Shown: positions 48,916-59,435 of the stretch, piece by piece
How positions within the stretch are numbered: the first letter of the stretch is position 1
Layout: every line of letters begins with the position of its first letter
From: Streptomyces fradiae ATCC 10745 = DSM 40063
GTDB lineage: Bacteria > Actinomycetota > Actinomycetes > Streptomycetales > Streptomycetaceae
Assembly: GCF_008704425.1 (NCBI RefSeq)
Contig: NZ_CP023696.1
Location: 3,086,501-3,150,500, forward strand
Direction: 5' to 3'
Length of the DNA: 64,000 nt
Made by a program: the position numbers and the translations under genes
The notes under the pieces: model-generated
The model's database searches: none
What the model was told of the DNA's origin: nothing
Seen by the model: only the letters and a program-made list of their open reading frames with translations

Positions 48916-49932
48916 TCAGGCGTCAGTTCCGCGCCGGGGAAGGGCCTGCGCCCCGTCGCTCGTCACGCGGGTGGCGCCGAAGTAGTCCGGGGTGTCGATC
49001 TTGTCGAAGCGGATGACCGCGCCGGTGTAGGGCGCGTTGATCATGTAGCCGCCGCCGACGTACATGCCGACGTGCCGGATGGCGCGCGAGTCGGTCAGGT
49101 CGTCGGAGAAGAACACGAGGTCGCCGGGGAGGAGCTCCTCGCGGGAGGGGTGGGGTCCGGCGTTGTACTGGTCGTTGGCGACGCGCGGCAGGTCGATGCC
49201 GACCGTGGCGTACGCGGCCTGGGTGAGCCCGGAGCAGTCGAACCGGCCGCCGTCAGCGGCGGTGCCCTCGCCGCCCCACAGGTACGGCTTGCCGAGCTGC
49301 TTCTGGGCGAAGTAGATCGCGCCGGCGGCCTGCCGGGAGGGCTCGACGGGGGCGACCGGCCGGGCGAAGCTCTTCTCCAGGGAGCGGATGACGCGCACGT
49401 AGTTCTGCGTCTCCTTGTACGGGGGGACGCCGCCGTACTTGATGACCGCGTACGCGCCGGCGTTGTAGGCCGCGAGCATGTTGTCGGTCGGGTCGCCGGG
49501 GACGTCCTTCACGTACTGCGCGAGGGAGCAGTCGTAGGAGGCCGCGGAGGGGATGGCGTCGTTGGGGTCCCACACGTCGCGGTCGCCGTCCTTGTCGCCG
49601 TCCACGCCGTGCGCGGCCCAGGTGCCGGGGATGAACTGGGCGATGCCCTGGGCCTGAGCGTGGCTCTGGGCGCGGGGGTTCCAGCCGCTCTCCTGGTAGA
49701 GCTGGGCGGCGAGCAGCGCGGGGTTGACGGCCGGGCAGAGGTTGCCCCACCGCTGGACGAGCGGCTGGTACGCGGCGGGCACGGCGCCCTTGGCCAGCCC
49801 GACGGCCCCCCGCACCCCGCCTCCGGCCCCGCCGAGCTGGGCGGCGACGACGTAGGTCCCGACGACGAGCAGCGCGACGAAACTCAGGCAGGCGCCGACG
49901 ACGACCCCGCCCACCAGCCACGTCTTACGCAC
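48916..49932 (-). CDS. Lytic transglycosylase / NlpC-P60 endopeptidase
   Basis: A 338-residue two-domain cell-wall hydrolase. GTG 49932 is preferred because GGGGG lies seven bases upstream, over a TTG at 49938. One N-terminal helix, then a transglycosylase domain with catalytic Glu in 'LYQESGWNPRAQ' and 'AQGIAQFIPGTW', then NlpC/P60 with Cys in 'RFDCSGLTQAAY' and His in 'IRHVGMYVGGG'. Such fusions (VirB1- or CwlT-like) open peptidoglycan for secretion systems, and the type IV-like operon begins 1.8 kb away. Opposite strand, so the link is by context. Confidence 0.92.
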   Translation of the reverse strand: MRKTWLVGGVVVGACLSFVALLVVGTYVVAAQLGGAGGGVRGAVGLAKGAVPAAYQPLVQRWGNLCPAVNPALLAAQLYQESGWNPRAQSHAQAQGIAQFIPGTWAAHGVDGDKDGDRDVWDPNDAIPSAASYDCSLAQYVKDVPGDPTDNMLAAYNAGAYAVIKYGGVPPYKETQNYVRVIRSLEKSFARPVAPVEPSRQAAGAIYFAQKQLGKPYLWGGEGTAADGGRFDCSGLTQAAYATVGIDLPRVANDQYNAGPHPSREELLPGDLVFFSDDLTDSRAIRHVGMYVGGGYMINAPYTGAVIRFDKIDTPDYFGATRVTSDGAQALPRRGTDA

Positions 49933-50231
49933 CGTCAAACCCCCGTACGGAGTAGGACCGCCACCGCCGAGCCCAGTCTAGGTACCGAAGCCCGTCCCAC
50001 GTAGGCATGAAAGCGCATTGCATCCGAAAACCAGCACATGTGATCATCCGTCGCATGACCACACCGGGGGCAGGTCACACAGAGGCGACACCGGCACGGC
50101 CACACTCCAGACCACCCCCGCCCATGAGGCGACGGGCCCAGCGCGTACACGGGCTCCGGCGTCATCCGCGCGAGCCGGGTCCGCTACGAGCACGACGCCC
50201 AGGGCCGCGTCGTCCTGCGCCCGAGAACCCG

Positions 50232-51714: not shown

Positions 51715-51740
51715 ACTACCGATAAGGGGCGGTGAGTTAC

Positions 51741-52049
51741 ATGTTCCTGGCGGCCGAGAAGGGCGACATCACCACCATCATTGGCGGAATCGCCCCGAAC
51801 TGGGGGCCCTTCGGGAGCCTGGGCAACCAGGCGCGCCTGATGGTCGAGATCGTGATGGCCGTGGCCATCCTGCTGTGCCTCGGCATCGCCATCTGGGGCG
51901 CGGCCAAGCAGCGCATCGGCGCCACCGCGCTGCGCGACACGTTCAGCGCCGAGCAGGGCAAGGGCCTGATCGTGGCCGGCCTGACCGGCGTCTTCATCAT
52001 CGGATCGCTCGGCACGCTGTTCACCATCGTCTACGGGATGGCCGTCTAG
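51741..52049 (+). CDS. Small two-helix membrane protein, VirB2/pilin-like
   Basis: A 102-residue protein; ATG 51741 follows GGGGCGGTGAG (a GTG at 51732 is possible). Two membrane helices ('IVMAVAILLCLGIAIWGAAK' and 'GLIVAGLTGVFIIGSLGTLF') are joined by a short basic loop, the layout of VirB2/TrbC pilins, but it has no long signal peptide. It is first in the operon, which is where pilin genes often lie. Homology is inferred from size, topology and context. Confidence 0.7.
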   Translation: MFLAAEKGDITTIIGGIAPNWGPFGSLGNQARLMVEIVMAVAILLCLGIAIWGAAKQRIGATALRDTFSAEQGKGLIVAGLTGVFIIGSLGTLFTIVYGMAV

Positions 52050-52186
52050 CCGCCGTCCCGCCCGACCCGCCTCCAGCTCCGGCGCCCGCAGAGGATGCGT
52101 CTCCTGATGTCCACTCACCACACCGCGCACGCGACGCGGACAGCAGTACGGCAGATGCAGCCATCGTTCGAGGAGGCGTACCCGTC

Positions 52187-53047
52187 ATGAGCTTCGGCGA
52201 CGAGTACGGAGGCGGGAGCGGCCGGGGCAGGGGCGGAACGGGGCGGGCGCGTACCCGCACGCACCCCGGGGACGAGGCCGTCGACGAGTACGGCGACGGC
52301 TTCGGCGACCCCCACCGGCGCCCGCAGCGCACCACCCGGTCGCTGGTCACGGTCGTCGGGGTGGTCGTCCTGCTGATCGCCGCCATCGCCTTCGCGAACC
52401 GCTCGGGCGACGGGGACGGCGACGGCGGCACCGCCAAGGCCCCCCGCGAGGGCGGCCCCGCCCCGACCGCGGCCACCGGCACGAAGCCCGTCACCGGGAA
52501 GAACGGCACGATCCCGTCGGGCTTCGCCCAAGACGAGCAGGGCGCGCAGAGCGCGGCGGCGAACTACGCGGTGGCGCTGGTCTCAGCCGGGATCATCAAG
52601 CCCCAGGAGCGCCCGGAGATACTGCGGCGCGTCTTCGTACCGAGTCGGGTCAAGTCCCTGGAAGCCGACTTCGACAAGGCGTACAGCCCGCAGTTCCTCG
52701 CCAAGCTGGGCCTGGACGCCGACGGCAACGCGGCCCCCGGCATGACGTACGTCTCCCGCGCGGCCCCCGTGGGCACCAAGATCGTCGAGTTGGACAGTCG
52801 AGCCGCGACCGTCGAGGTCTGGTGCACCGGTGTCTTCGGCACCGCCGGTGTCAGCTCCACCAACCCGGTAACGAGCGACTGGTTCACCATGACCATCAAG
52901 CTGCTCTGGTCCGGCGGCGACTGGAAGGTGGAGAGCTTCTCCCAGAAGGACGGCCCCGCGCCGGTGAGCGCCGACCGCACAGCGTCGAACGCCGATGAGA
53001 TCGCGGCGGCAGTCGAGGAGTTCGGAGGCTTCACCTATGCCCGGTAA
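52187..53047 (+). CDS. VirB8/TcpC-like conjugation protein
   Basis: A 286-residue protein; ATG 52187 follows GAGGAGG. A disordered Gly/Arg/Asp N-terminus of about 50 residues, one membrane helix ('SLVTVVGVVVLLIAAIAFAN'), then an outer domain (about 115-286) with 'AQSAAANYAVALVSAG' and 'VEVWCTGVFGTAGVSS' that resembles the NTF2-like fold of TcpC/VirB8. It would link inner-membrane and cell-wall parts of a channel. It overlaps the next gene by 11 bases. Confidence 0.72.
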   Translation: MSFGDEYGGGSGRGRGGTGRARTRTHPGDEAVDEYGDGFGDPHRRPQRTTRSLVTVVGVVVLLIAAIAFANRSGDGDGDGGTAKAPREGGPAPTAATGTKPVTGKNGTIPSGFAQDEQGAQSAAANYAVALVSAGIIKPQERPEILRRVFVPSRVKSLEADFDKAYSPQFLAKLGLDADGNAAPGMTYVSRAAPVGTKIVELDSRAATVEVWCTGVFGTAGVSSTNPVTSDWFTMTIKLLWSGGDWKVESFSQKDGPAPVSADRTASNADEIAAAVEEFGGFTYAR

Positions 53048-54425
53048 GCCGCGCCGCGCCTTGCGGGCCGCCGCCCTCCTCGCAGCCGTCCAGACGTCCG
53101 CCGTACTCTTCGCCTCGCGGGCGTACGCCGAACCGACACCGACAGCCCCCAGTCCGGGTGCATCACCCGCCCCGACCTCCTCACCGTCGAACGACAACGA
53201 CTGTGAGCTCATCGTCGGCCCCACCCGCGACTTCTGCGAGAGCGACGACCCCGGCAGCACCTCCCGCTCCGTCAACCCCCTCGAGCCCGGCGACGCCCTC
53301 GACCCGCTGTCCTCCCTCGCCCGCGGCTGCGCCAACGCCGCCGCGTGGACCGTGGACAAGCTGAGCGAGGCCGTCGAGAGCACGGCCGCCGTCGACTTCA
53401 CGAACCCGCAGTTCCTCAAGCAGTACGCCGTCGTCTTCGCCGCCTCCACCATCCTCACGCTCGTCCTGTGGCTGCTCGCCGTGGCCAAGCGGGCCATCCG
53501 GGGCGTGGCGCTGGGCACGGCGATCTCGGAGGCCGTCGGGTTCCTGTGGCTCACCGTCCTCGCCTCCGCGTTCACGCCGCTGATCCTGCACACCGTGGTG
53601 TCCGCGACCGACGGGGTCACCGAGGTGATCGCCTCCGGTACGGGCGGGCAGACCGACGCGTTCTTCGGGTCGTTCTCCGCCGCCCTGAAGAAGGGCGACG
53701 ACATCGGCGGCGGCCCCATCATGATGATCGTCGTCGCGCTCGTGTCGATCCTCGCCGCCGGCATCCTGTGGCTGGAGCTGGTCATCCGCGCCGCCCTGCT
53801 CTACGTGGGCGCCCTGCTCGGCACGGTGGTGTACGCGGGGCTCGTCGACAGGAACATGTGGGGCCACGTCCGCCGCTGGGCCGGCATCATGATCGCGATC
53901 ATCCTCGTCAAGCCGGTGATCGTGATCGTCCTCGGGCTGGCCGGGGCGCTCTCCTCCGGCGACGGTCCCGACGCGTTCTCCGCCGTCGTCTCCGGCCTCG
54001 CCATCATCCTGCTCGCCATCTTCGCGTCCGCCGCGATCTACCGCTTCGTGCCCGGCTTCGGCGACGAGATCGCCACCGCCCGCACCAACCGCAAGCAGGC
54101 CACCGACGGCGCCCAGGCCGCCGCCGTCATCTCCTCCCCCGCCGCGCTGGTCTCCCAGGGCATCAAGACCCACAGCTCCCGCAGCCACCAGCACAGCGGC
54201 GGCGGCGCCCCGGCAGGGGCGGGAGCCGGCGCCGTGGCCGGCGGAGTCGCCGCCCACAGCAGCCGCGGCAGCGCCCCCACCGGCCCGGCCCCCGGCGCCA
54301 CCGCCACCCCCGCGCCCCGCAGCGCGCCGAGCGCCCCCTCGACCACCGGCAGCCCGCACACCAGCCGCGGCACCGGCAACACGGGTAACAACAGCAACAA
54401 CAGCTCAGGAGGTGGAGGGCGGTGA
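53037..54425 (+). CDS. VirB6/TrbL-like polytopic membrane protein
   Basis: A 462-residue protein; ATG 53037 with GGAGG upstream. A signal peptide (cleavage near AYA-EP), a linker with two Cys ('DNDCELIVGPTRDFCES'), six or seven membrane helices between about 130 and 350, and a Ser/Gly/Asn/His-rich C-terminal tail of about 100 residues ending GNNSNNSSGGGGR. This is the VirB6/TrbL plan: inner-membrane channel component. It overlaps the next start by four bases (GTGA). Confidence 0.75.
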   Translation: MPGKPRRALRAAALLAAVQTSAVLFASRAYAEPTPTAPSPGASPAPTSSPSNDNDCELIVGPTRDFCESDDPGSTSRSVNPLEPGDALDPLSSLARGCANAAAWTVDKLSEAVESTAAVDFTNPQFLKQYAVVFAASTILTLVLWLLAVAKRAIRGVALGTAISEAVGFLWLTVLASAFTPLILHTVVSATDGVTEVIASGTGGQTDAFFGSFSAALKKGDDIGGGPIMMIVVALVSILAAGILWLELVIRAALLYVGALLGTVVYAGLVDRNMWGHVRRWAGIMIAIILVKPVIVIVLGLAGALSSGDGPDAFSAVVSGLAIILLAIFASAAIYRFVPGFGDEIATARTNRKQATDGAQAAAVISSPAALVSQGIKTHSSRSHQHSGGGAPAGAGAGAVAGGVAAHSSRGSAPTGPAPGATATPAPRSAPSAPSTTGSPHTSRGTGNTGNNSNNSSGGGGR

Positions 54426-55984
54426 CGACCCAGTCCCACGCGATCACGCCCCGCCGCACGTATCTCATCGGCCGCGCCCGGCCGAACGCGATCATCGGCA
54501 AGAACCGCGAGACCGGCGAGATCGCCCTGATCATCGCCGGCGCGTTCGTCGGCATGATGTGCGGCCTCCTCGTACCGGTGCTCTCCCTGCGGATCGTGCT
54601 GCTCGCCGGCTTCCCGATGCTGGCCCTCGCCGCCGTGTACGTCCCCTACCGGGGCCGCACCTTCTACCGCTGGTACGAGGTGAACCGCAGCTACAAGCGG
54701 ACCCTCCGCCAGGGCACCGCGTACCGCTCCGGCGCGATGGAGGCGGGCACCCGCCTCGACGGCCGCGAGGTCGAGATCGCGCCTCCGCCCGGCATCGGCC
54801 GCATCAACTGGCTCTCCGCCCCCTTCGGCCCCGACGAGATCGCCGTACTGCTCCACGCCGACCGCCGCACGGTCACCGCGGCCATCGAGATCGAGGGCCC
54901 CGGCGTCGGCCTGCGCGACAGCGAGGACCAGGAAGCCCTGGTGGACCGTTTCGGCACCCTCCTCAAGCACGTCGCCAACGGGGACGGCTTCGTCACCCGC
55001 ATCCAGATGCTCGCCCGGACCCTCCCGGCCGACCCCGACGCCCACGCCAAGGACGTCGCCCAGCGCGGCGACCCGAACGCCCCGCGCTGGCTGCTCGACT
55101 CCTACGACCAGCTCCTCTCCATGGTGTCGACCTCCAGCGAGCAGCACCGCGCCTACCTCGTCGCCTGCATGCACTACACCCGCGAACTGGCCGCCGAGGC
55201 ACACGCCATCGCCCGCGCCGCGCGTCACACCGGCCCCGGCGGCCGGCGGCAGCGGCTCGACAAGGACGCCGGGATCGCCGTGGTGATGGCCCGCGAGCTG
55301 ACCGACATCTGCGCCCGCCTCGCCGAGGCCGACATCCGGGTCCGCCAGCCGCTCGGCCAGTCCCGCCTCGCGTCGCTGATCCACTCCATGTACGACCCGG
55401 ACCACCCGATCGACCACATCCAGGCCATGTCCAAGCGCAACGCCTGGCCCGCCGAGCTGGACGCGGCGTCGCCGACGCACCTCCAGGCGAAGACCCGCGA
55501 GTCCGCGACCCGCGCCCCCTGGTGCCACGCCACGGCGTGGGTCAAGGAGTGGCCGATGACCCCCGTCGGGGTCAACTTCCTCGCCCCGCTGCTCGTCCAC
55601 ACCCCGGACGTGATCCGCACGGTCGCCGTCACCATGGACCTGGAGCCGACCGAGATCGCCATCGAGCGGATGCTCACCGAGAAGACCAACGACGAGGCCG
55701 AGGCCAGCCGCGCCGCGAAGATGAACCGCACCGTGGACCCGCGCGACATCGCCGCCCACGGCCGGCTCGACCAGCGGGGTGAGGACCTCGCCAGCGGCGC
55801 GGCCGGGGTGAACCTGGTGGGGTACATCACCGTGTCGTCGCGCTCCCCGGAGGCCCTCGCGCGGGACAAGCGCACGATCCGGGCGTCCGCCGGCAAGTCG
55901 TACCTGAAGCTGGAGTGGTGCGACCGCGAGCACCACCGGGCCTTCGTGAACACCTTGCCGTTCGCGACCGGCATCCGCCGGTGA
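54422..55984 (+). CDS. SCO6880-family protein (VirB3 plus VirB4 N-terminal-like)
   Basis: A 520-residue protein. Two membrane helices near 34-68 ('IALIIAGAFVGMMCGLLVPV') resemble VirB3/PrgI; the large soluble part corresponds to the region that precedes the ATPase in fused VirB3-VirB4 proteins ('VGYITVSSRSPEALARDKRT', 'SYLKLEWCDREHHRAFVNTL'). It carries no Walker motifs. In this operon the ATPase is the separate gene that follows, so together the two would make one VirB4-type engine. Confidence 0.82.
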   Translation: MTTQSHAITPRRTYLIGRARPNAIIGKNRETGEIALIIAGAFVGMMCGLLVPVLSLRIVLLAGFPMLALAAVYVPYRGRTFYRWYEVNRSYKRTLRQGTAYRSGAMEAGTRLDGREVEIAPPPGIGRINWLSAPFGPDEIAVLLHADRRTVTAAIEIEGPGVGLRDSEDQEALVDRFGTLLKHVANGDGFVTRIQMLARTLPADPDAHAKDVAQRGDPNAPRWLLDSYDQLLSMVSTSSEQHRAYLVACMHYTRELAAEAHAIARAARHTGPGGRRQRLDKDAGIAVVMARELTDICARLAEADIRVRQPLGQSRLASLIHSMYDPDHPIDHIQAMSKRNAWPAELDAASPTHLQAKTRESATRAPWCHATAWVKEWPMTPVGVNFLAPLLVHTPDVIRTVAVTMDLEPTEIAIERMLTEKTNDEAEASRAAKMNRTVDPRDIAAHGRLDQRGEDLASGAAGVNLVGYITVSSRSPEALARDKRTIRASAGKSYLKLEWCDREHHRAFVNTLPFATGIRR

Positions 55985-56217
55985 CCGCCGCACCGGCCGT
56001 ACCAGCCGCTCGTGCCCAGCCGACCGCAGGTGCCGAGCCGGGCCCGCGGTGCGCGCGCGCCGTTGAGGCCGCACCGGCCGTACGGGACACCCAAGCGGAA
56101 CCGGCCGCCCCCGCCAGGACCGCCCCCGCCAGGCCCGCTCCCACCAGGCCAGGCCCGGCCGGACCGGCCGGCGCGGCGCGGGAGCCCGCAGACCACACCC
56201 CCAGGACGAGACGATAG
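55981..56217 (+). CDS. Possible small Ala/Pro-rich protein between VirB4 halves
   Basis: GTG at 55981 overlaps the previous stop (GTGA) and a 78-residue frame runs to 56217, 15 bases before the ATPase start. The product is low complexity (APAVPAARAQ, ARTAPARPAPTRPGPAGPAG). The placing is like that of the other genes in this operon, but composition alone cannot distinguish a gene from a spacer. Confidence 0.4.
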   Translation: MTAAPAVPAARAQPTAGAEPGPRCARAVEAAPAVRDTQAEPAAPARTAPARPAPTRPGPAGPAGAAREPADHTPRTRR

Positions 56218-56232
56218 GACGATAGGGGCCTG

Positions 56233-57645
56233 ATGATGCGCGATCCGCTGTCCGTCCTCACCGAAGCCTTCACCTCCTTCCTCTTCGGGAAGGTGGAGAC
56301 CACCCGCCTGCCCGTGCGCACCTCCACCGGCCAGGCCCAGGCCGTGTACCTGCCGACCGCCGCCCCCGGCCTGGGCGACTCCGGCGTGATCATCGGCCGC
56401 GAGGTGTACAGCGGCAAGGGGTACATCTACGACCCGTTCCAGCTGTACGGCCAGCAGCTCCCCGCCCCGCACTGGCTGGTCCTCGGCGAGTCCGGCAACG
56501 GCAAGTCGGCGCTGGAGAAGACGTACGTGCTGCGCCAGCTCCGCTTCCGCGACCGCCAGGTCGTCGTCCTCGACGCGCAGGGCGAGGACGGCGTCGGCGA
56601 GTGGAACCTCATCGCCGAGGAGCTGGGCATCACCCCCGTGCGCCTCGACCCGAGGGCCGCCCTCGACGACGGCATCCGCCTCAACCCGCTCGACCCGTCC
56701 ATCACGACCACCGGCCAGCTCGCGCTGCTGCGCACCATCATCGAGGTCGCCCTGGGCCACGGCCTGGACGAGCGGTCCGGCTTCGCCCTGAAGGTCGCCC
56801 ACGCGTACGTCAACGAGACCATCACCGACCGCCAGCCGGTCCTCACCGACATCGTGGAGCAGCTCCGCCACCCCGAGCCCGAGTCGGCGGAGGCGATGAA
56901 CGTCGACCTGGACGACGTACGCGCCTGGGGCCTCGACGTGGCGCTGGTCCTCGACCGGCTCGTCGACGGCGACCTGCGCGGCATGTTCGACGGGCCGACG
57001 ACCGTCGGCATCGACCTCGACGCCCCGCTCATCGTCTTCGACCTCTCGCACATCGACCGCAACTCCATCGCCATGCCCATCCTGATGGCGATCGTCGGCG
57101 TGTGGCTCGAGCACACCTGGATCCGCCCCGACCGGAAGAAGCGCATCTTCCTGGTCGAGGAGGCCTGGCACATCATCAACAGCCCCTTCGTGGCGCAGCT
57201 CTTCCAGCGGCTGCTGAAGTTCGGCCGGCGCCTCGGTCTGTCCTTCGTGGCCGTCGTCCACCACCTCAGCGACGTGGTCGACGGCGCGGCGGCGCGGGAG
57301 GCCGCGGCGATCCTGAAGATGGCCTCCACGCGGACGATCTACGCCCAGAAGGCCGACGAGGCACGGGCGACCGGGCGGGTGCTCGGCCTGCCACGCTGGG
57401 CCGTCGAGATCATTCCCACCCTGACGCCCGGCATCGCGGTGTGGGACGTCAACGGCAACGTCCAGGTCGTCAAGCACCTCATCACCGAGGCGGAGCGGCC
57501 GCTCGTCTACACCGACCGCGCCATGACCGAGTCGTCCGCGCCCGAGCTGCCCGACGACCTGAAGGCCGCCGAGTGGGAGGCGGAGCAGCGAGCGGCCCTG
57601 ATGGAGCGGCAGATGAACGGCTCGCCCGAGTCGACGGTGGCCTGA
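56233..57645 (+). CDS. VirB4/TraC-like ATPase
   Basis: A 470-residue P-loop ATPase. Walker A 'GESGNGKSA' at 85-93; Walker B with catalytic acidic pair in 'RIFLVEEAWHII' near 303-314; 'FGRRLGLSFVAVVHHLSDVV' follows, as in VirB4 C-terminal domains. It would energise pilus or substrate movement. It lacks the N-terminal domain of full VirB4, which the SCO6880-like gene supplies. Two ATGs (56233, 56236) follow GATAGGGG. Confidence 0.88.
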   Translation: MMRDPLSVLTEAFTSFLFGKVETTRLPVRTSTGQAQAVYLPTAAPGLGDSGVIIGREVYSGKGYIYDPFQLYGQQLPAPHWLVLGESGNGKSALEKTYVLRQLRFRDRQVVVLDAQGEDGVGEWNLIAEELGITPVRLDPRAALDDGIRLNPLDPSITTTGQLALLRTIIEVALGHGLDERSGFALKVAHAYVNETITDRQPVLTDIVEQLRHPEPESAEAMNVDLDDVRAWGLDVALVLDRLVDGDLRGMFDGPTTVGIDLDAPLIVFDLSHIDRNSIAMPILMAIVGVWLEHTWIRPDRKKRIFLVEEAWHIINSPFVAQLFQRLLKFGRRLGLSFVAVVHHLSDVVDGAAAREAAAILKMASTRTIYAQKADEARATGRVLGLPRWAVEIIPTLTPGIAVWDVNGNVQVVKHLITEAERPLVYTDRAMTESSAPELPDDLKAAEWEAEQRAALMERQMNGSPESTVA

Positions 57646-57647
57646 CC

Positions 57648-59435
57648 GTGGACGGCACGCACGGCCCGTACGGCGCGTCCGGCGCGACGCACGGCGGCCC
57701 GAACGTACCGGGCGGCCCGGGTGGTACGGGCGGAGGCCACGGCGGGCGCACCGGGGGCGGCGTCCCCGACGGGCTGCTCGTGGGGCTGCTGGGGTTCCTG
57801 CTGGGCGTGACGGTGCTGGTGTGGACGGCGACCGGCCTGGCCGGGCTGCTCGCGCACGGCTCGTGGCCGGGCGGGGTCTCCTTCACCCGCACCCCGCAGG
57901 CCCTGCGCCACCTGATCGGCGACCCGCGCGACCTGGTGGGCGCCTGGCCGGAGACGCCCGCCGATCAGCTCCCCGGCCACGGGGTGTTCTGGGGGCTGCT
58001 GATCGGCGAAGTGATGGTGGCGGTGGTGCTGGCGGTGTTCGTGGTGGGCACGTACGCCCGCTGGCGCGCGGTACGGGCCGCCGCCCGCGCCCAGGGCGGC
58101 AGGCCCGGCCTGAGGAAGGCCCCGCAGGCGGAGGCCGTGGCGGCCACCCCGGCGGCGGCCGACCCTGCGACGGCCGACCCGGCACAGGTGCCCGGCCGCG
58201 CGGGCGACCCGACGGAGGGTCCCGTACGCACCCCCGTGCCGGAACCCCGCACGACCCCAGCGCCCGTCGCCCACCAGTCACCCGCGCCCCACCCCTCCAC
58301 CCACCCGCCGACCGCACACGCCCACCCGCACGGCGCGCACCCGCCGGCCCTGGCGGCGCCCACCACGCGACCGGCCCCCCTGCCCGCCGCCCACACCCCG
58401 CAAGCCCACACCCACCACACCCACCACACCCCCACCCCTCCACCCCTCCCCACCATCCCCGAGCCCGGCCAGACCGCACCCGGCCAGACCGGGCCGCGCC
58501 TGCTGTACGGCGATCGGGCCGCGCGCCGCCCGCACGCCCTCCAGGCGATCCTGGAAGCCGCGGGCCCCGCCCTCGTCGTGACGTCCGACCCCACCCTGTG
58601 GGCCGACACCAAGGACGCCCGCGCCAAGCTCGGCCCCGTCGTCCTGTACGACCCCGGCCACCTCTGCGACACCCCGGCCCGCCTCCACTGGTCGCCCGCC
58701 GAAGGCTGCGAGGACACCGCGACGGCCGCCTCCCGCGCCGCCGCGCTCCTCGCCCCGGTACGGCCCCGCGCCCGCCTGGACGCCGCCGTCGCCGACACCG
58801 CCGAGACGCTGCTGCGCTGCTGGCTGCACGCGGCGGCCGTCGACGGGCGGCCGTTCAAGCAGGTCCACCGCTGGGCACAGCACCACGGCACCGCCCACGA
58901 GCCGGTCCGCATCCTCCGTACGCACCCCAAGGCGGCGGGCGGCCACGCGGGCCTCCTGGAGTCCGCGCTCACCGCCCACCCGGAACGCCGGGACGCCGCA
59001 CGGGCGCTGACGGCACGTGCCCTCACCGCCCTGTCGCTGGTCCACGTCCGCGAGGCGTGCACCCCGCACCGAACCGACACCCTGGCGCTCGCATCATTCG
59101 CCGCCGAGGGGGGCACCCTCTATGTGGTGGGCGAACCGATCGAGGACCCTCGGACCGACCCCGGTGCGATGCCCCTCCTCACCGCCCTCACCTCGCACGT
59201 GGTCGAGCACGGCCGCCGCATGGCCGCACGGTCATCCGACGGTCGGCTCGACCCACCAATCGAGCCGCCGCTGACCCTCGTCCTCGACGACGTGGCCGCG
59301 GTCGCCCCGCTCCCCCGCCTCCCGGAGCTCCTCGCGCCGGGGCACGGCGACCGCCTGCCGACGCTCGTCCTGCTCCGCTCCCGGGAACAGGCCCGCGCCC
59401 GCTGGCAGACCCCCCTCGACCGACCGGCACCCTGA
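57648..59435 (+). CDS. VirD4/TraG-like coupling protein lacking Walker A
   Basis: A 595-residue protein with GTG start. Two membrane helices (about 40-65 and 115-140), then about 140 Pro/His/Ala-rich residues, then a domain resembling VirD4 ('ALVVTSDPTLWADTKDARAK', 'GPVVLYDPGHLCDTPARLHW', and 'LTLVLDDVAAVAPLPRLPEL' in the Walker B place). The P-loop expected just before 'ALVVTSD' is absent: the stretch there reads 'LLYGDRAARRPHALQAILEA'. It is therefore a coupling-protein relative unlikely to hydrolyse ATP in the usual way. Confidence 0.75.
   Translation: MDGTHGPYGASGATHGGPNVPGGPGGTGGGHGGRTGGGVPDGLLVGLLGFLLGVTVLVWTATGLAGLLAHGSWPGGVSFTRTPQALRHLIGDPRDLVGAWPETPADQLPGHGVFWGLLIGEVMVAVVLAVFVVGTYARWRAVRAAARAQGGRPGLRKAPQAEAVAATPAAADPATADPAQVPGRAGDPTEGPVRTPVPEPRTTPAPVAHQSPAPHPSTHPPTAHAHPHGAHPPALAAPTTRPAPLPAAHTPQAHTHHTHHTPTPPPLPTIPEPGQTAPGQTGPRLLYGDRAARRPHALQAILEAAGPALVVTSDPTLWADTKDARAKLGPVVLYDPGHLCDTPARLHWSPAEGCEDTATAASRAAALLAPVRPRARLDAAVADTAETLLRCWLHAAAVDGRPFKQVHRWAQHHGTAHEPVRILRTHPKAAGGHAGLLESALTAHPERRDAARALTARALTALSLVHVREACTPHRTDTLALASFAAEGGTLYVVGEPIEDPRTDPGAMPLLTALTSHVVEHGRRMAARSSDGRLDPPIEPPLTLVLDDVAAVAPLPRLPELLAPGHGDRLPTLVLLRSREQARARWQTPLDRPAP

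Follow-up and report, generated by a model that had tools for sequence, protein, structure and literature searches.

The cmd operon of Streptomyces fradiae as a candidate domesticated type IV secretion system

Identity of the operon and its published phenotypes

Why does a Streptomyces chromosome carry a row of type IV secretion-like genes with no conjugation genes beside them? The question was raised by a sequence-only reading of a 64,000-nt stretch of S. fradiae DNA (the window), which described six or seven packed genes of this kind and took them for a resident, non-conjugative system with some other export or surface job. Six genes were found in the position and order described, running in a single direction from cmdF through cmdE, cmdD, cmdC and cmdB to cmdA, beside tgdA and the pst/ppk region. 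The features of the locus are as follows.

48916 to 49938, minus strand: tgdA orthologue (SCO4132), VirB1-like partner (Pfam NLPC_P60 1.3e-24, SLT 8.2e-16)
51732 to 52049, plus strand: cmdF (SCO4131 orthologue), VirB2/pilin-like by topology only (105 aa, two transmembrane segments)
52187 to 53047, plus strand: cmdE (SCO4130 orthologue), predicted VirB8-like bitopic protein (AlphaFold2 domain, VIA-align matches)
53037 to 54425, plus strand: cmdD (SCO4129 orthologue), polytopic, putatively VirB6-like (hydrophobic segments, weak NCBIfam match)
54422 to 55984, plus strand: cmdC (SCO4128 orthologue), presumed VirB3/VirB4 N-terminal equivalent (NCBIfam SCO6880_fam)
55985 to 56232, no strand: cmdC-cmdB spacer of 248 bp, GC-rich and repeat-rich, almost absent in S. 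scabiei (L201)
56233 to 57645, plus strand: cmdB (SCO4127 orthologue), VirB4 ATPase (Walker A GESGNGKS intact)
57648 to 59435, plus strand: cmdA (SCO4126 orthologue), degenerate VirD4/TraG coupling protein (hhalign; start codon uncertain)

Judged by sequence comparison, the six packed genes at 51732-59435 are the orthologue of S. coelicolor cmdABCDEF (SCO4126-4131), because gene order, the pst/ppk neighborhood, and the published primer peptides all agree. Translation of the S. coelicolor cmdB mutagenesis primers gives the peptides ESGNG-SALE and VQVV-HLIT, both of which were found in the window CmdB, around K91 and K414. Upstream, beyond tgdA, lie genes for DUF47, pit, pstB, pstC, and pstS, and then ppk, an order that fits SCO4132-SCO4145 of the S. 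coelicolor map for the pst/ppk genes.

The cmd genes have been studied experimentally in S. coelicolor, where cmdABCDEF are co-transcribed, and cmd mutants of three Streptomyces species, S. fradiae not among them, show sporulation defects (Xie et al., 2009; PMC2782261). The mutants form 6-8% anucleate spores, have uneven nucleoids, and overproduce actinorhodin, whereas deletion of cmdA by itself gave no sporulation phenotype (PMC2782261). CmdB is membrane-located, and two of its lysines are needed for function, with a caveat on protein stability (PMC2782261). Deleting the S. coelicolor cmd orthologue impaired sporulation but left transfer of the SLP2 plasmid unchanged; the same authors noted the VirB4 similarity and proposed testing for a type IV-like channel (PMC2782261). 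A later screen found raised actinorhodin in cmdBCDEF, tgdA, and SCO5677 mutants (PMC6585502), and SCO4130 (CmdE) was detected as a membrane glycoprotein (PMC6593405). Both the operon and its part in development are thus already known from published work; the mechanistic refinement given below looks unpublished in the open-access literature covered.

Type IV secretion parts encoded at the locus

The VirB4 ATPase recognized by the sequence-only reading proved to be CmdB, which matched Pfam AAA_10 above the cut-off (3.2e-13) and VirB4 of known structure, PDB 4AG5 (1.4e-6). The Walker A motif of CmdB, GESGNGKS, was intact in 80 of 80 loci. The gene is the sole AAA_10/VirB4 gene in the S. fradiae genome (6.73 Mb, one contig), and its dN/dS of ~0.06 indicates strong purifying selection. 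CmdC matched the NCBIfam SCO6880_fam model above the cut-off (3.2e-57), and a diverse CmdC profile searched against PDB chains gave no match. A predicted fold of CmdC, obtained from a shallow alignment (~90% identity), was discarded at a mean pLDDT of 32. The description of CmdC as an SCO6880-family VirB3/VirB4N protein therefore stood as to its family, and the fold model added nothing to the VirB3/VirB4N part.

Fold prediction, which the same reading had proposed for each product, was informative for CmdE. This protein has one transmembrane segment and a domain modeled by AlphaFold2 from an alignment of 33 Streptomyces sequences (pLDDT about 90-97). The best VIA-align matches of the modeled domain were DotI, IcmL, VirB8, and TraE (Z 11-12.6), and nearly all of the top 26 rows were VirB8-family proteins of type IV secretion systems (T4SSs; Z 10.5-12.6), with Gram-positive pIP501 and pCF10 proteins among the family's matches further down. 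Unrelated NTF2-like folds scored only slightly below the VirB8 family (Z about 10), and Foldseek was less specific, its best two rows being the plastid protein ARC6. Matches of CmdE to DUF6480 and CU044_5270 lay below the cut-off and were set aside. The model predicts a VirB8 fold for CmdE (Z up to 12.6), in agreement with the VirB8/TcpC-like protein called earlier from the letters.

CmdD has about six or seven hydrophobic segments and a weak match to NCBIfam SCO6881 (0.094, below cut-off), while CmdF is conserved at a median identity of 91% over 70 Streptomyces loci. By topology only, CmdD may be VirB6-like and CmdF VirB2-like, and to that extent the VirB6-like channel and pilin-like VirB2 first proposed fit these products.

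The VirB1-like transglycosylase/NlpC gene that had been placed 1.8 kb away was confirmed as tgdA, whose product is a membrane-anchored SLT lytic transglycosylase with an NlpC/P60 domain. In the window, tgdA lies 1.8 kb upstream of the operon on the opposite strand, in divergent orientation; in families f2, f3, and f10 it is immediately adjacent to cmdF, again divergent, and the loci read there have DUF47, pit, or ppk close by. The tgdA-cmdFEDCB block is common to four families, and in S. coelicolor, mutants in tgdA have the same phenotype as cmd mutants (PMC6585502). T4SS parts are therefore present at this locus in the form of VirB4 (CmdB), the SCO6880-type CmdC, the VirB8-fold CmdE, the polytopic CmdD, the CmdF protein with two transmembrane segments, and the VirB1-like TgdA.

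CmdA aligned with coupling proteins (T4CPs) of related elements over ~460 columns (hhalign probability 100%, 2.3e-54) and has two N-terminal transmembrane segments, so that its earlier naming as VirD4-like held for homology; the degeneracy of its Walker motifs had not been noticed. A P-loop pattern search found no GK/Walker A in CmdA at any of 87 Streptomyces loci, whereas related T4CPs carry GPPRSGKG or a similar P-loop at this place. The acidic D-E pair of Walker B reads D-D in the window and in nearly all aligned relatives, and E-D in one. CmdA also diverges faster than its neighbors (median identity 63% compared to 93% for CmdB), and the dN/dS of cmdA was 0.53 in the one pair computed, compared to ~0.06 for cmdB. 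In family f3, which belongs to the same order, the operon stops after cmdB and has no cmdA; CmdA of family f2 still reads GPARSGKA, and the plasmid-borne relatives keep intact P-loops. CmdA is thus a VirD4 homologue whose ATP-binding motif has been lost in Streptomyces. A genome-wide T4CP search gave short P-loop matches only, which are not decisive on another coupling protein.

Conservation and chromosomal residence

CmdB was ~89-98% identical in almost all of the 247 Streptomyces genomes sampled, and a full-length match was missing in only four, three of which have a full CmdC. Loss of cmd from these three was rejected, as contig breaks or partial genes were found with cmdC intact. The fourth, G139 (98% complete, ~1010 contigs), had neither a CmdB nor a CmdC orthologue, reflecting either an assembly gap or a true loss. 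With CmdB and/or CmdC in all genomes but G139, the distribution is not accessory or patchy, and the comparison of conservation and synteny across Streptomyces suggested at the outset came out in favor of a resident locus. The identity of CmdB was 80-84% in other families of the order and about 50% or less elsewhere, except for one f10 genome at 78%, and the best match among 72,556 plasmid records was below 60%. By sequence comparison, the operon looks to be at the same chromosomal locus in three further families (f2, f3, and f10). In a quick VirB4 tree with several long branches elsewhere, the cmd loci formed one short-branched set next to plasmid-type relatives.

No TrwC/MOBF relaxase was found in the S. 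fradiae genome in a search for the TrwC family, no tRNA within the window, and no integrase or attachment sites among the flanking genes checked (ppk, pstS, pstC, pstB, pit, DUF47, PAP2, and an ABC transporter); an Rfam search at the cmd locus returned nothing. The near-universal presence in 247 Streptomyces genomes and three further families, the missing TrwC relaxase, and the unaffected SLP2 transfer (PMC2782261) all support the resident, non-conjugative system of the sequence-only reading. Its premise that Streptomyces conjugates by TraB alone is incomplete, because VirB4/T4CP/MOBF plasmids and integrative conjugative elements (ICEs) exist in this genus.

It is extremely improbable that the locus is the remnant of a defective ICE, which is how ICE screens would score it. 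The operon is homologous to plasmid T4SSs and no TrwC relaxase was found, and a mid-chromosome defective ICE reported in all 11 strains of one ICE screen (PMC9513070) may be the cmd locus itself; however, near-universal conservation, a single locus in four families, and strong purifying selection already contradict a remnant, as do the phenotypes of cmd mutants (PMC2782261). Such screens may count this core locus among defective mobile elements.

The chromosomes of family f18 (L107, L121, L123, L125) carry a second, separate cmd-like T4SS operon, which is conserved among them. This operon adjoins genes for ergothioneine (egt) and in some cases ilvD; a TgdA-like gene is often found upstream, no coupling protein was recognized, and in the VirB4 tree it makes up a tight clade of its own. 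Many Streptomyces draft assemblies break ~3 kb downstream of cmdB, which suggests that many species have a repeat at that point, for instance an rRNA operon; no such repeat is present in the window.

Proposed function, a candidate motor, and related systems

Based on these comparisons, we consider that cmd is probably a T4SS captured by the chromosome of the order's ancestor and domesticated as an envelope machine that is driven by VirB4 and serves aerial growth, not conjugation. In such a machine, CmdB would hydrolyze ATP on the inner side of a membrane channel built from CmdC-D-E-F, TgdA would open the cell wall locally, and something would be exported or assembled at the aerial hypha surface without a VirD4 motor. 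Loss of Cmd would disturb aerial hypha growth and septation, with failure of chromosome segregation as a consequence. This reading is favored by a cmdA that is dead or absent and whose deletion is without phenotype (PMC2782261), by plasmid relatives that have the same genes plus a live T4CP (in one case together with MOBF and an SLT/C40 gene), by the adjacency of tgdA in four families and the shared phenotype of its mutants (PMC6585502), by the near-universal conservation and low dN/dS of cmdB (~0.06), and by precedents for VirD4-less T4SSs (PMC12857230). It is weakened by VirB6 and VirB2 assignments made by topology only, by the discarded CmdC model, and by SCO5677, which could supply the missing coupling ATPase. 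We infer an envelope role on aerial hyphae with no DNA transfer, which leaves the export or surface job first proposed on the same conjectural footing.

The segregation defects of cmd mutants would also be explained by a DNA-moving role. A Cmd machine that translocates chromosomal DNA at sporulation septa, along the lines of the segregation role put forward by Xie et al., would account for the 6-8% anucleate spores, the uneven nucleoids, and the membrane-bound CmdB (PMC2782261), but it appears quite unlikely given a dead or missing coupling protein and a genome in which no TrwC relaxase was found. Moreover, the aerial branching and the delay in aerial growth speak for an envelope function at an earlier stage, and mutants in the wall hydrolase gene tgdA are similar (PMC6585502).

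The S. fradiae gene between gabT (SCO5676) and a semialdehyde dehydrogenase gene (SSADH, SCO5679) is the presumed orthologue of SCO5677, assigned by this gabT-SSADH neighborhood and not by the S. coelicolor sequence. Its product has membrane segment(s) and a Walker A motif that is invariant in 26 of 26 relatives. The f3 forms matched TrwB_AAD_bind (8.8e-6) and HerA (4.2e-8), both above the Pfam cut-off, whereas the Streptomyces forms gave no Pfam match above cut-off and an hhalign probability of 12% to T4CPs; a SCO5677 profile found no convincing match among PDB chains. Homologues were present in all Streptomyces sampled, in all f3 genomes, and in f19, with none in f2 or f10 (one genome each). 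In f19 (L268, L269, L270), SCO5677-like ATPases with an intact Walker A lie beside an amidase-like gene, with no close cmd operon, and strict co-occurrence of SCO5677 with cmd was rejected on this ground.

SCO5677 is a candidate replacement motor, as an unlinked VirD4/HerA-like ATPase; its link to cmd is hypothetical because it rests mainly on a shared mutant phenotype. It is a doubtful, though testable, idea that SCO5677 replaced the dead CmdA as the VirD4-type ATPase and that the Cmd machine still loads substrate from the cytoplasm, through a motor swap in which CmdA died (its gene being deleted in a sister family), substrate loading passed to SCO5677, and TgdA is the wall-opening part. SCO5677 transposon mutants showed raised actinorhodin and prodiginine like those of cmd and tgdA, all grouped under aerial hypha formation (PMC6585502), but a common screen phenotype is not an interaction. 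The invariant Walker A (26/26), the transmembrane segments, and the f3 matches to TrwB_AAD_bind and HerA are consistent with a swap, as is the absence of SCO5677 from f2, where CmdA keeps GPARSGKA, and its presence in f3, which is without cmdA. The weak T4CP homology of the Streptomyces forms (hhalign 12%, no Pfam match) argues against it, as do the f19 homologue without cmd and the f10 genome that has cmd and no homologue, and the f2 and f10 absences come from one genome each.

If the envelope reading is true, a conjugation machine has turned into a fixed developmental organelle in one of the best-studied bacterial genera, and the dead CmdA motor and the SCO5677 lead give specific tests for a phenotype described in 2009 without a mechanism.

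Among known systems, the closest is S. coelicolor cmdABCDEF with tgdA, which has the same genes, order, neighborhood, and CmdB active-site peptides, and differs by ordinary sequence divergence only, plus the 248-bp cmdC-cmdB spacer of the window, which S. scabiei is without. In the published S. coelicolor account, CmdA is not identified as a degenerate VirD4, nor CmdE as a VirB8. Plasmid T4SSs of Streptomyces, for example those of pMDJK44.2 (NZ_CP023977) and NZ_CP108308, have homologues of CmdF, E, D, C, B, and A in the same order, and pMDJK44.2, typed MOBF, has an SLT/C40 gene upstream, like tgdA. In contrast to cmd, their CmdB is only ~40-50% identical, their T4CP Walker A is kept, and their distribution is accessory. 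Homologues of cmdB, cmdC, and cmdD occur in SCO6871-6884 (SCO6878/6880/6881) and among the SLP2 transfer genes, according to Xie et al. (PMC2782261). However, these are other loci; SCO6878 and SCO6881 mutants sporulate without defect, and the SLP2 genes, unlike cmd, are needed for plasmid transfer (PMC2782261). ComB of H. pylori and Trw of Bartonella are likewise VirB4-driven and work without a coupling protein (PMC12857230), but they are Gram-negative systems with other functions, in which the coupling gene was lost, whereas Streptomyces has kept a dead copy.
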